Source of the DNA: a bacterium
GTDB lineage: Bacteria; UBP15; UBA6099; DSWB01
Direction of reading: 5' to 3'
DNA length: 6,197 bases
NCBI GenBank assembly: GCA_020061125.1
Contig: JAGUYV010000453.1
Location: 1-6,197, forward strand
Under the pieces are notes generated by a model. That model did no database searches, had not been told where the DNA came from, and was given only the letters and a program-made list of their open reading frames with translations. Position 1 is the first letter of the stretch. Every line of letters begins with the position of its first letter. The position numbers were made by a program, and so were the translations under genes. Below, piece after piece: positions 1,024 to 5,691 of this stretch.

Positions 1024-2322
1024 ATGAATGACCGGGGGCGGATTAAGATAGCGCTGATCGGCGCGGGCGGCGCAACATTCGGGTCGCTGACATGTTACGA
1101 GGCGGTGCGCGCCCAGGGGCTGCGGGGCGGCGAGTTGATGCTGATTGACATCAATGCGGAGACCCTTGAGCGCACGCGCGCGGCCGCGGAGCGCATGAAC
1201 CGCGCCCTGGGCGAGCCTCTGGCAATCTCCGCGGACACGGACACGGCGCGCGGCATCCAGGGCGCGGATTTCATCGTGCTGTCCGTTGAGGCGGGCCGCT
1301 GGAAATACTGGCGGCAGGATCTGGAAGTGCCGTGCAAACACGGGTCCATGCAGGACATGGGCGAGTGCGGCGGCCCCGGCGGGCTGTTCCACGCCCTGCG
1401 TACGATTCCCCTGGCCCTGTCCGTGTGCCGCATCATCGAGGAACACGCGCCGGGCGCACTGCTCATCAATGTGACCAACCCCCTGCCCCGCGTGACCCTG
1501 GCCATCCAGCGCGCCACAAAGCTGCGCTGCATCGGCGACTGCCCCGAGTTCCGGCTCGCGCAGCCGCGCCTGGCCCTGGGGCTGATGGCGCCCATGAGCA
1601 ATCTGCGCGCCACGGCCTGGGGCCTGAACCATTTCACCTGGTACCACGAAATCACGGCCGCGGACTCGGGCGCGGACCTGTACCCCCGGCTGCGCCGCAA
1701 CGCGCGCCTGTTCCCGTTCCTGCACGGAAAGCTCGCGCGCAAATGCCTGGACGAGTTCGGCCTGTACCCGGTGAGCGCGGACAGCCACATTGGCGAATAC
1801 CTGCCGAGCGCGGGCCGGTCAAGCCGGTCCGTGCTGCCCGAATGGTTCCCCTATCAGCAGTTCTCGGAATTCGAGTGCGGGTGGCGCGTGCGCCTCACCG
1901 AGTGGTACGGGCAGGGCCGCATCAGCCTGCCGCTCGAAAAAATGCCCCGCGCCGTGGAGGGCGCCATGGAACTCGTCGAGGCTCTGGCCACGGGCGCTCA
2001 CAAAGAGTTCGGCGCCGTGAACGCGCGCAATGACGGGCGCATCCCCAACCTGCCGGACTGGGCCGTGGTCGAGACGCCCGCGCAAACACGGAACGGGCAA
2101 CTCGAACCCGCGTCCATGCCGCCCGTGCCCGAACCCCTGGCCGGGGTCATGCAAACACAGTGCGAAATCCAGCGCCTGACCGTGGACGCGGCGCTGAACA
2201 CGGACCCGGAGGCCGCAATCGCGGCGCTGGCCATAGATCCACTGGCCCCGCCCACGGAGCAGGCCTGCCGCGCCGCATTCGAGGAAATGAAATCCCTGCA
2301 GGGCGACGCGTGGGGTTTCTGA
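1024..2322 (+). CDS. Glycoside hydrolase family 4 (NAD-dependent), substrate unknown
   Basis: GH4 enzymes are cytosolic and use NAD+ and a divalent metal to cleave glycosides by an oxidation-elimination mechanism. The 432-aa product has the usual length. It opens with a Rossmann dinucleotide motif GAGGATFG (13-20), with an acidic LIDIN at 40-44. It then shows the family's GGPGGLFHALRTIPLAL (116-132), TNP (151-153), Cys173 and NH at 202-203 (the expected metal ligands Cys and His), a D-x-HIGEYLP segment (253-261), IPNLPDWAVVE (340-350) and a C-terminal IDPLAPP (404-410). The residues after the metal cysteine are Cys-Pro-Glu-Phe. I recall CHSV, CHG, CDMP and CNxP marking galactosidase, glucosidase/glucuronidase and phospho-glycosidase groups, and this matches none. 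No sugar transporter or PTS gene is adjacent. The start is supported by GGAGG 6 nt upstream. The family is secure; substrate and even retention of hydrolase activity are not. Confidence 0.88.
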   Translation: MNDRGRIKIALIGAGGATFGSLTCYEAVRAQGLRGGELMLIDINAETLERTRAAAERMNRALGEPLAISADTDTARGIQGADFIVLSVEAGRWKYWRQDLEVPCKHGSMQDMGECGGPGGLFHALRTIPLALSVCRIIEEHAPGALLINVTNPLPRVTLAIQRATKLRCIGDCPEFRLAQPRLALGLMAPMSNLRATAWGLNHFTWYHEITAADSGADLYPRLRRNARLFPFLHGKLARKCLDEFGLYPVSADSHIGEYLPSAGRSSRSVLPEWFPYQQFSEFECGWRVRLTEWYGQGRISLPLEKMPRAVEGAMELVEALATGAHKEFGAVNARNDGRIPNLPDWAVVETPAQTRNGQLEPASMPPVPEPLAGVMQTQCEIQRLTVDAALNTDPEAAIAALAIDPLAPPTEQACRAAFEEMKSLQGDAWGF

Positions 2323-2446: not shown

Positions 2447-2475
2447 TATGCAATTGCGCGGCCTCATGCTATAAT
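2447..2475 (+). promoter_or_regulatory. Strong predicted promoter of the SDR/acyltransferase operon (extended -10)
   Basis: TATAAT at 2470-2475 is a perfect -10 box and is preceded by TGC (2467-2469), an extended -10. The -35 position at 17-bp spacing is TATGCA (2447-2452), only 3 of 6, which an extended -10 can compensate. An 8-bp palindrome, GCAATTGC (2450-2457), overlaps the -35 area. Transcription would start near 2482, giving a leader of about 53 nt. Confidence 0.6.
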
Positions 2476-2520: not shown

Positions 2521-2526
2521 GGAGGG
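2521..2526 (+). promoter_or_regulatory. Shine-Dalgarno site GGAGGG that decides the SDR start
   Basis: GGAGGG lies 8 nt before ATG 2535, an ideal distance. It lies only 2 nt before the alternative in-frame TTG at 2529, which is too close. The SDR gene therefore starts at 2535. Confidence 0.75.
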
Positions 2527-2534
2527 ACTTGCTT

Positions 2535-3437
2535 ATGCGCATCATGATCACCGGCGCGTCCGGATACTTCGGCCAACTGCTCGCCCAGCGCCTGCGGGAC
2601 GACCTGGGCGCGGACACGGAAATCATCGGCATTGACATCCGCGAGGCAGAGGACACGCCCCAGGAAATGCGGTTCCTGGAGGGCGACACGCGCAAGAAAC
2701 GCATCGAGGACATTTTCAAGGTGCAGGACCAGATTGACACGGTCATCCACCTGGCGCGGGACGCCACCCCGGGCCTGCCCAGCGACAAGTCCATGATGAC
2801 CAATGTGTACGGCACGGCCCACATGCTCGAGCTGGCCCTCAAGTACAAGGTCAAGCAGTTCATCTTCCCCAGCGCGAGCATCGTGTACGGCGCGCACCGC
2901 GACAACCCCGCGCTCATCCACGAGTGCCACCCCCTGCTCGGCAACCGCGATGTGTCCAACATCCGTGACCGCGTCGAGGCCGACATGATCTGCCAGTCCT
3001 TTTCCAACAACACGAGAATGAAAGTCGTGATTCTGCGGATCGTGCCCATCTGGCGCGCCCAGGGCAACGGCATGCTCCAGCGCTACATGAAGCACGACCT
3101 GGTTCCCACGCTCATGGGCTACGACCCCATGTTCCAGATCATCTACGAGGAGGAAGTGCTTGAAGCCTTCAGCCTCACCGTGCGCAACCCCAAAGCCTTC
3201 GGCGCCTACAACATCCGCGGCCGCGTGTTCATGCCCCTGTCCAAAGTCATCAAGGAACTCGGCAAAACGCCCCTGCCCCTGCCCGAGCCGCTGGTGCACA
3301 AAAAGGGCCAGTTCCGCTGGTCCGAAAATGTGCGCTTCGATTTCAATTACCTCAAATACCCGTTCTGCGTGGACGGGGACCGCGCCAGGCGCGAACTCAA
3401 GTACCGGCCCGAGGAAATCACCATCACCCGCGTGTGA
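2535..3437 (+). CDS. Extended SDR protein, NAD-dependent epimerase/dehydratase-like, with altered catalytic dyad
   Basis: The product has 300 residues and looks cytosolic. It carries the Rossmann motif TGASGYFG (6-13), an acidic end to the second strand (IGIDIRE, 31-37), EGD (49-51) typical of cofactor-adenine binding, VIHLA (70-74), N90 in TNVYGT, and FPSASIVYG (111-119), the usual strand with the catalytic Ser region. The place where Tyr-x3-Lys is expected reads NIRDR (142-146), so the canonical proton-relay Tyr and Lys appear absent. LRIVPIW (167-173) and YNIRG (225-229) match later family motifs. The gene is followed after 21 bp by an acyltransferase, clearly in one operon. Such SDR plus acyltransferase pairs occur, as I recall, in mycobacteria (Rv0501 galE2 next to Rv0502). 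The substrate is unknown: a lipid-linked sugar or ketone is possible, and so is a binding role without redox turnover. The fold call is secure, the reaction is not. Confidence 0.85.
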   Translation: MRIMITGASGYFGQLLAQRLRDDLGADTEIIGIDIREAEDTPQEMRFLEGDTRKKRIEDIFKVQDQIDTVIHLARDATPGLPSDKSMMTNVYGTAHMLELALKYKVKQFIFPSASIVYGAHRDNPALIHECHPLLGNRDVSNIRDRVEADMICQSFSNNTRMKVVILRIVPIWRAQGNGMLQRYMKHDLVPTLMGYDPMFQIIYEEEVLEAFSLTVRNPKAFGAYNIRGRVFMPLSKVIKELGKTPLPLPEPLVHKKGQFRWSENVRFDFNYLKYPFCVDGDRARRELKYRPEEITITRV

Positions 3438-3458
3438 CCCGCGCACGGAGCGTCTCTT

Positions 3459-4310
3459 ATGAGCGACTACAAGGATCTCAAGCACAAGCACTTTTTCGAC
3501 GGCACGGCCGAGGCGTTCATGAAAGACCTGCTGCTGCGTTCGGACGCGGGCATGCAGGACGGCCAGTACGACATGATCGGCGGCGACATCAACGCCACCG
3601 CCAAAACCATGTCGTTTTTCCTTTGGTTTTATAAATTCTACTTCCGCGTGGAAGTGCATGGCGTGGAGAACATCCCGCAGGACGGGCCCGGCCTCATCGT
3701 GTCCAACCACGCGCCCATCTTCCCGTTCGACGCCACGCAGATCGCGCTCGCCTGCCTGCTCGAACCCGAGAAGCCCCGCTATGTGCGCACCATCGTGAAC
3801 CGCGCCATCGCCGACATCCCTTTCTTCTCCACGCTCATGTCCCGCACCGGTCAGGTCATCGGCTGCGACGACAATGTGCGCCGCGTGTTTGAGAACCAGA
3901 ACCTGATCGTAGTGTTCCCCACGGGCGCCGAGGGCGACATGAACACCATCTTCAACAAGTACCAGGTGCATGAATTCGCCGTGGGTTTCATGGAATACGC
4001 TCTGCGGTTCCGCACGCCCGTGACGCCCACCTGTGTGACGGGGTCCGAGGAAGCCGCGCTCACCCTGGGCAAAATCAACACCAACCTGGCCGGTTTCAAG
4101 CACATTCCGATCACGCCCATCTTCCCCTGGCTCGGCCCCCTGGGGTTCATCCCCTTCCCCAGCAAGTTCCGCATCTATTTCGACCCGCAGATTGATTACC
4201 ACACCGAACACCGCGAGGAACGCGACAACCCCGAGAAAGTGCGCGAACTCGTGGAGGGCCTGCGCCAGCACATCCAGCACATGCTCGATTCCGCACTGGG
4301 CCGGAAATGA
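3459..4310 (+). CDS. Lysophospholipid-type acyltransferase (LPLAT, MGAT-like class)
   Basis: This 283-aa protein belongs to the PlsC/LPLAT superfamily, which transfers acyl groups from acyl-CoA or acyl-ACP to a hydroxyl on a lipid at the inner membrane face. The aromatic stretch SFFLWFYKFYF (52-62) precedes VEVHGVENIP and could anchor the protein in the membrane interface; no clear full membrane helix is seen. Motif 1 is NHAPIFPFD (83-91): His84 and Asp91 are six residues apart instead of the textbook four, as I recall for the MGAT-like branch. Motif 2 is FPTGAEG (153-159), where Thr replaces the common Glu of FPEG. Further hallmarks are GSEEA (195-199) and PITPIFPWLGPLG (217-229) with FPSKF (233-237). 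ATG 3459 has ACGGAG 8 nt upstream. It shares an operon with the upstream SDR. The acceptor lipid cannot be read from sequence. No terminator is seen after it. Confidence 0.87.
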   Translation: MSDYKDLKHKHFFDGTAEAFMKDLLLRSDAGMQDGQYDMIGGDINATAKTMSFFLWFYKFYFRVEVHGVENIPQDGPGLIVSNHAPIFPFDATQIALACLLEPEKPRYVRTIVNRAIADIPFFSTLMSRTGQVIGCDDNVRRVFENQNLIVVFPTGAEGDMNTIFNKYQVHEFAVGFMEYALRFRTPVTPTCVTGSEEAALTLGKINTNLAGFKHIPITPIFPWLGPLGFIPFPSKFRIYFDPQIDYHTEHREERDNPEKVRELVEGLRQHIQHMLDSALGRK

Positions 4311-4358: not shown

Positions 4359-4372
4359 AAATCTGGTACAAT
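4342..4372 (+). promoter_or_regulatory. Predicted promoter of the lipoprotein gene (extended -10)
   Basis: TACAAT (4367-4372), 5 of 6 to consensus, is preceded directly by TGG (4364-4366), an extended -10. TTGCGC (4342-4347) is a possible -35 but lies 19 bp upstream, slightly far. Transcription would start near 4379-4380, about 32 nt before ATG 4412. This suggests the lipoprotein can be expressed apart from the upstream operon. Confidence 0.5.
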
Positions 4373-4411: not shown

Positions 4412-4807
4412 ATGAAACGCGCTTTTCCGGTGATACTGATAGCCGTGTGCGCGCTTGCGGGTTGCGCGCGCATCAAGCAGTTCGCGGACCCGCCCGCGGC
4501 CAAGTTCTACAGGGACTACCGCCGCGGCGTGGTGCAGGAAGATGTGCGCAACTACATGGAACTGATAAACCACAATTTCGTGGATTACAACCTGGATGTG
4601 ATCAGCGCCGAGGAGGAAAACGCGGTGTACTACATCCAGGCGTCCGAAACCGTGCGCTGGATGCCGCCCAACGCCGCGGGCATCAATTTCGCGACCATTG
4701 TCACGCGCGAGTTGTCCGCCGTGGTCGAGGAAATTGACGGCGAATGGCAGGTGACCGGCGAAACCGTGGAAAGCGAAAACATCAGCACCTACGACCAGAG
4801 GCAGTAG
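4412..4807 (+). CDS. Small predicted lipoprotein, possibly NTF2-like fold
   Basis: I do not recognise a named family. The 131-aa product starts with a short basic N-terminus (MKR), a hydrophobic core and lipobox LAGC (15-18), so Cys18 should be lipidated, leaving a mature protein of 114 residues. The residue after Cys is Ala rather than Asp, which in enterobacteria favours outer-membrane sorting; that rule may not hold here. The mature part is helix-rich first (DVRNYMELINHNF, 44-56), then strand-like (AVYYIQASETVRW, 71-83; SAVVEEIDGEWQV, 101-113). This alpha-then-beta pattern, with a polar EIDGEWQV hairpin near the end, resembles NTF2/SnoaL-like proteins, but that is only inference. AAAGGTGG at 4395-4402 is the ribosome site, 9 nt before ATG 4412. 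It lies 101 bp after the acyltransferase with its own predicted promoter, so any link to lipid acylation is guilt by position only. Confidence 0.8.
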   Translation: MKRAFPVILIAVCALAGCARIKQFADPPAAKFYRDYRRGVVQEDVRNYMELINHNFVDYNLDVISAEEENAVYYIQASETVRWMPPNAAGINFATIVTRELSAVVEEIDGEWQVTGETVESENISTYDQRQ

Positions 4808-4989: not shown

Positions 4990-5691
4990 ATGCGCGCTTT
5001 GCTTTGTCTGGTTTTCTGCTGCCTTATTCCGGTTGCGGCGTGCGCGCCGTGCGCGGCCCAGGAGGGTGCGGATTCTCCGGACGACATGTGGTCCCCGGGA
5101 ATCAAGACCGTGGAGTGGCAGGTCAATTATCCGTTTTATCTCGGGCTGGACAATGAGGAAACCGCACTGGAGCTGAACCGCGCCCTGGCCGCGCCCGCGG
5201 ACCAGTTGCGCGCATTCGCGGGCGGAGACGGCCTGGAACCCGGCGCCGGGCTGTATATGACCTTTTCCGTCACGCGCCGCACCAACGCTTTCATCAGCGT
5301 GGCCTACGAGGCGTCGTTCATGCATCTGGGCGCGGCGCACCCGGTCAATCCCATGTTCGGCGTGACCGCGGACCTGGCCACGGGCCGCCCCTATGCGCTC
5401 ATGGACATGTTCGCGCCCGGTTGCGACGCGCAGAAGCTGCTTATTGGTGAAATCGCACGCTTTACGGAAAACAACGACGCCATGCTCCTGGCCCCGGTGC
5501 AGTCTCTGAATCTCGATCTGGACGAAGCCTGGCAGCGGCCCGGCTTCTTTCTCACGCAGGAGTCATTCGTGCTCTTTTTTCAGGAATATGTGTTCACCCC
5601 GCATGTGTTCGGACCGCTGGTGGTGGACATCCCCTACGCGCGCCTCGACGGCTGCCTCAAAAAGGAGTTCATGCCCGGAAGCGCGGAGTAA
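4990..5691 (+). CDS. Secreted or lipid-anchored DUF4163/DUF3298-type (PdaC/RsiV-like) protein
   Basis: The 233-aa product opens with an export signal (MRALLCLVFCCLIPVAA). VAAC (15-18) is an acceptable lipobox, so it may be a lipoprotein; signal peptidase I cleavage a little later is the alternative. Residues about 40-110, with VNYPFYLGLDNEETALELNRAL (45-66), look like the DUF4163 (PdaC) region. Residues about 113-216 look like DUF3298: GAAHPVN (114-120), DLATGRPYALMDMF (128-141), and a late segment with LTQESFVLFFQEY (188-200) and VVDIPYARL (211-219). These domains occur in the Bacillus anti-sigma factor RsiV, where they bind lysozyme, and in the deacetylase PdaC. Here neither an anti-sigma helix nor a deacetylase domain is attached, so it stands alone outside the cytoplasm. 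Binding of a cell-wall ligand is a guess. It is 21 bp upstream of the rlmI-like gene and probably co-transcribed with it. Confidence 0.83.
   Translation: MRALLCLVFCCLIPVAACAPCAAQEGADSPDDMWSPGIKTVEWQVNYPFYLGLDNEETALELNRALAAPADQLRAFAGGDGLEPGAGLYMTFSVTRRTNAFISVAYEASFMHLGAAHPVNPMFGVTADLATGRPYALMDMFAPGCDAQKLLIGEIARFTENNDAMLLAPVQSLNLDLDEAWQRPGFFLTQESFVLFFQEYVFTPHVFGPLVVDIPYARLDGCLKKEFMPGSAE

Follow-up and report, generated by a model that had tools for sequence, protein, structure and literature searches.

The window, that is, the whole stretch of 6,197 nucleotides that was analysed, lies on contig C43 of a metagenome-type assembly of 4.1 Mb. It carries an extended-SDR gene followed by an acyltransferase (AT) gene, together with several flanking genes, and the positions of all features are given in Table 1. 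Both ORFs of the pair were found at the place reported in the first-pass annotation, on one strand and 21 bp apart. The products of the lipoprotein-like gene and the DUF3298-domain gene downstream of the pair are probably secreted or lipoproteins.

Table 1. Features of the window, and ParA/AAA_31 ATPase genes found at other SDR-AT loci (last two lines, with the locus before the colon).
Feature	Position	Strand	Remark
DAHP synthase gene	2-916	minus	window gene
GH4 glycosidase gene	1024-2322		window gene, before the SDR gene
Extended -10 promoter-like element TGCTATAAT	2467-2475	+	sole exact TGNTATAAT in the window; weak -35
Shine-Dalgarno-like GGAGGG	2521-2526	+	8 nt before the SDR ATG; direct sequence reading
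Extended-SDR gene, ATG 2535 to stop 3437, 300 aa, degenerate catalytic triad	2535-3437	+	Pfam Epimerase 1.8e-18
Codon A114, SDR catalytic Ser/Thr position (GalE S124)	2874-2876	+	profile alignment, column counts
Codon N142, SDR catalytic Tyr position (GalE Y149)	2958-2960	+	profile alignment, column counts
Codons D145 and R146 (R146 at the catalytic Lys position, GalE K153)	2967-2972	+	profile alignment, column counts
Motif G195-Y-D-P-M199 of AT-linked SDRs, pattern G-[FY]-[DN]-P	3117-3131	+	
Spacer between SDR and AT genes, 21 bp	3438-3458	+	
AT gene, ATG 3459 to stop 4310, 283 aa, GPAT/PlsC fold	3459-4310	+	PF01553 2.1e-17
AT motif I N83-H84-X6-D91 (NHAPIFPFD)	3705-3731	+	N83, H84 and D91 in 59/59 homologues
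AT motif III FPTGAEG; family consensus FPEG[x]KG	3915-3935	+	E155 in 54/59
Small lipoprotein-like gene, without Pfam match	4412-4807		3' of the pair
DUF3298-domain gene	4990-5691		3' of the lipoprotein-like gene
RlmI-like rRNA methyltransferase gene, start only	5713 on		
ParA/AAA_31 ATPase genes	L081:3090-3884, L083:3009-3776, L085:2800-3564		between SDR and AT or beside AT
ParA/AAA_31 ATPase genes	L216:4355-5128, L046:557-1324, L234:7143-8126		between SDR and AT or beside AT

Judging from the sequence, one promoter at 2467-2475 could plausibly serve both the SDR and AT genes. When the window sequence was shuffled, an exact TGNTATAAT was expected 0.01 times by chance, and it was seen once, on the plus strand at this position. 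The element was missing from a sigma-70 hexamer scan because its -35 is poor, and the same scan revealed no plus-strand promoter-like site between the SDR and AT genes. A shared strong promoter had been proposed at first reading; the rare extended -10 element makes a shared promoter plausible, and "strong" is a deduction from the sequence. A second extended -10-like element, TGGTACAAT, lies at 4363-4371, before the lipoprotein-like gene, and this gene therefore probably has its own transcription.

The AT-family and SDR-family profiles were both searched against one set of 193 genomes, most of which represented a bacterial family each. The AT family was present in 27 genomes and the SDR family in 28, with both in 26 (Fisher p 9e-29), and a linked SDR-AT pair was found in 24 of the 27 genomes with an AT. 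In this sample, 35 of the 59 AT genes had a same-strand SDR gene within 3 kb, and both gene orders, SDR-AT and AT-SDR, were found. Among 80 named AT loci, 74 included a family SDR; of the other six, L092, L115, L130, and L134 had the AT at the contig or locus end, L120 had a weak SDR match only, and in L141 the AT was truly alone. Adjacent pairs were found in records whose titles name Mycobacterium (including M. leprae), Mycolicibacterium, Gordonia, Williamsia, Frankia, Streptomyces, Chloroflexota, Acidobacteria, Vicinamibacteria, Myxococcales, Deltaproteobacteria, Dadabacteria, and Abyssobacteria. In a second sample, 97 genomes drawn independently from one other phylum, the AT was present in 91 genomes and the SDR in 90, and 58 of the best 60 ATs were SDR-linked. 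No SDR-AT fusion was detected, as a Pfam check of the long AT frames found no SDR domain.

The trees of the AT and SDR from 49 linked pairs had 29 of 46 splits in common, and the distances of the two proteins gave a Mantel r of 0.76 (the highest value in 2000 permutations was 0.26); since vertical inheritance alone also yields congruent trees, it is the gene-order swaps, of which two were needed on either the AT or the SDR tree, and the linkage that carry the argument for a module. These results support that the SDR and AT genes form a widely spread, co-inherited module. The first-pass annotation had suggested just such a widely spread but poorly described module, to be given up if adjacency were rare outside close relatives or if the two trees had independent histories; adjacency holds across many families, and the two trees are congruent. 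Chance adjacency, or recent operon formation in a single lineage, could appeal to the two AT paralogues of the window's genome that stand alone, but it is refuted by the linkage in many families, the two gene orders, and the congruent trees, and its probability is negligible. The two paralogues without an SDR neighbour are at L191:5301-6191 and L192:5119-5988, and an SDR paralogue of the same genome is located at the edge of contig C455 (L193). Many genomes have extra ATs lacking an adjacent SDR, indicating that not every AT needs a neighbouring partner.

A mycobacterial pairing had also been pointed out at first reading, and homologues of both genes do lie side by side in M. leprae (L151) and in numerous Mycobacterium loci. 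Rv0501 (galE2)/Rv0502 of Mycobacterium tuberculosis and the M. leprae orthologues are a homologous pair with the SDR preceding the AT on the same strand, and the adjacent same-strand homologues and congruent trees place the window pair in this type of module. The Rv0502-type AT shares ~31 percent identity with the window AT, from which it differs in having an N-terminal extension and in keeping FPEG, and the mycobacterial SDR has F at the catalytic Tyr position where the window SDR has N. Four PlsC homologues, Rv0502 among them, are conserved in M. smegmatis and M. leprae (PMC10593935), and Rv0502 turns up in a biofilm screen (PMC12974664, review); no enzymatic activity of Rv0502 was reported in the papers found. 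ML2428/Rv0501 has been treated as an epimerase/dehydratase or an uncharacterized protein (PMC4809885). The open-licence PMC papers on Rv0501, Rv0502, MSMEG_0946/0947, and pseudo-SDR regulators gave no function for the SDR or the AT, and no description of the pair or of the lost triad described below was found in open-licence PMC papers.

The window AT matched PF01553, its sole Pfam family, with 63.6 bits (cut-off 23), and all 59 homologues also matched this domain. Its AlphaFold model (mean pLDDT 93.2) was closest to human GPAT1 8e4y (Z 17.1, rmsd 3.6, 247 aligned) and T. maritima PlsC 5kym, a 1-acyl-glycerol-3-phosphate acyltransferase (Z 16.4, rmsd 4.6, 213 aligned), followed by plant-type GPATs and 7zkq chain T. 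The classical motif I spacing of PF01553 is H-X4-D. Unlike PlsC and GPAT1, with which it has the fold and the domain in common, the AT family has H84-X6-D91, with the catalytic His and Asp kept in all 59 homologues, and the window clade carries FPTG as motif III; T155 was found in the window AT and three ATs of its order. The window AT was also far under the cut-off of the PlsC equivalog TIGR00530 (AGP_acyltrn; 24.2 bits, cut-off 102.95) and those of other NCBIfam models. With its catalytic residues kept, the AT looks active, though of unusual motif spacing. In a relative of the window's order (L195:5450-8770), the arrangement is SDR-AT-AT, in which the first AT is of the FPTG type and the second of the FPEG type.

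The SDR was likewise modelled with confidence (pLDDT 93.5), and the best VIA match of the model was the UDP-glucose 4-epimerase 4zrm (Z 27.9, rmsd 3.1, 274 aligned). The extended-SDR fold was full-length, with VIA Z values of 26-28 across residues 1-300. The NAD-site residues are kept in the family (G7 in 51/52, G13 in 50/52, D34 in 39/52, and D51 in 44/52), and the window SDR has G7, G10, G13, D34, and D51, namely the glycine motif, the Asp at the end of strand 2, and the Asp of the adenine site. Nevertheless, although the fold and the NAD site are those of GalE and other extended SDRs, the window SDR scored 45.8 bits against the GalE equivalog TIGR01179, below the cut-off of 262.3, and neither the SDR nor the AT of the window attained any NCBIfam equivalog cut-off.

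Catalytic positions were placed by a profile alignment of the SDR family to E. coli GalE spanning the active site. In the window SDR the whole Ser/Tyr/Lys triad is replaced, GalE S124, Y149, and K153 corresponding to A114, N142, and R146 in the alignment. Of the 49 AT-linked SDRs, 2 had an intact triad, against 15 of the 21 relatives that these genomes carry without AT linkage (p 8e-9; entry U363, a linked gene, was left out), a contrast between clades that reflects few evolutionary events rather than many independent ones, as nearly all triad-bearing unlinked SDRs belong to one clade. Position 142 is occupied by F, W, Y, N, S, T, L, or D in the linked family, and this repeated change looks like relaxed constraint. 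Other positions distinguish the linked SDRs by their conservation: D145 is Asp in 48/49 linked and 7/21 unlinked SDRs, and G195 with P or A at 198 occurs in 49/49 linked and 9/21 unlinked SDRs, the column counts being 52/52 for G195 and 50/52 for P198.

We propose, with a probability of about 0.5, that catalysis is the task of the AT and that its SDR partner, without catalytic activity of its own but probably able to bind NAD, regulates or scaffolds it. The AT would be a GPAT/PlsC-fold O-acyltransferase with H84-X6-D91 as the active site, presumably with acyl-CoA or acyl-ACP as the acyl donor and a molecule of the glycerolipid type as the acceptor. The SDR, which retains the complete fold of nucleotide-sugar epimerases and the majority of the NAD-site residues but has a lost triad, would bind the AT, serve it as a scaffold or regulator that takes up NAD(H) or a ligand, and perform no redox chemistry. 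The first-pass annotation had offered two roles for the SDR: chemical modification of the AT substrate finds no support, given the replacement of Ser, Tyr, and Lys in the window SDR and their rarely being intact together in AT-linked homologues, and the alternative that the SDR "senses" something is the version favoured here. A more tentative idea is a complex in which the dead SDR would gate the GPAT-fold AT in response to the NAD(H) state or to a ligand, either a nucleotide sugar or a lipid; in some lineages a ParA-type ATPase would position this complex. As far as found, no redox- or metabolite-gated acyltransferase of such a kind has been described in bacteria. Human DIESL (TMEM68) with its regulator TMX1 (PMC10482677) is an analogue only in the way it works, being an acyltransferase of PlsC-like fold under a bound redox-family partner; TMX1 itself is a membrane protein of the thioredoxin family and has no relation to SDRs. 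One result speaks against a wholly non-catalytic SDR family: Tyr is found at position 142 in 9 of the 49 linked SDRs, and together with K146 in 3, so that some members could be active.

The module occurs in mycobacteria, myxobacteria, Chloroflexota, Acidobacteria, and many little-known lineages, and the papers found report no function for either protein. Should the SDR be non-catalytic, names like "galE2, UDP-glucose 4-epimerase" misannotate the paired family, and any sugar- or keto-lipid-modifying logic resting on them fails. The pair also offers a case in which control of an acyltransferase by a pseudo-oxidoreductase can be tested directly.

Among the alternatives, the AT may belong to neutral-lipid (MGAT/DGAT-like) and not to phospholipid metabolism, helped by the SDR, a doubtful reading that is compatible with a regulating or scaffolding SDR. 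The DAGAT domain PF03982 was matched weakly by 26 of the 59 homologues (best 6.1e-8), and the loss of the motif III Glu in the window clade could mean a non-phosphate acceptor. However, all homologues match PF01553, the window AT gave no DAGAT match at E 0.001, and its fold is nearest to those of GPAT1 and PlsC. The "MGAT-like" label given at first reading therefore has some footing in the family but not in the window AT itself.

It is unlikely, in our estimate, that the SDR is instead an active enzyme with non-canonical residues, for example D145 in the RD motif, acting on a nucleotide sugar or lipid whose product is then acylated by the AT, the two-step pathway imagined at first reading. Such an enzyme would account for the complete epimerase fold, including the C-terminal domain, and for the presence of GalE and HpnA among the most widely matching NCBIfam relatives of the SDR family. 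It would also fit the nearly or fully invariant D145, Y118, E130, R168, G195, and N226, of which the conserved D145 might be a catalytic residue, but several of these residues may be structural. In addition to the replaced triad, the free variation at position 142 argues against it, and so does position 171, which faces GalE N179 by reading of the alignment and is not conserved.

The third alternative, a module for localising or scaffolding membrane lipid synthesis, holds that the SDR, with a ParA-type ATPase if present, places the AT at a membrane site or pole and senses no metabolite. This reading overlaps with the SDR as regulator or scaffold that we prefer, and on its own it also appears improbable. 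In its favour, the gene of a specific ParA-type ATPase (AAA_31) lies between the SDR and AT genes in six loci (G050, L082, G055, G177, G041, and G063) and adjoins an AT gene without SDR in G124, and several ATs carry long, basic, low-complexity N-terminal tails. However, both the ATPase and the tail are absent in most lineages, including that of the window, and the NAD-site residues are retained beyond the need of a mere scaffold. The ATPase scored 441-477 bits against its own profile in four lineages and 322-356 bits in three (about seven lineages in total); it is a distinct ParA/AAA_31 ATPase with the P-loop EKGG-[ST]-[GC]-KTT and the motif [VI]DEAQSHG.

A universal third gene of the module was also considered and rejected, as a Pfam scan of 129 neighbouring ORFs revealed no family in more than four of them, except for the ParA-type ATPase of one subset. 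At one locus (L202:7466-8245), a GDPD (glycerophosphodiester phosphodiesterase) gene overlaps the end of the AT-SDR pair, which is a hint at glycerolipid metabolism.
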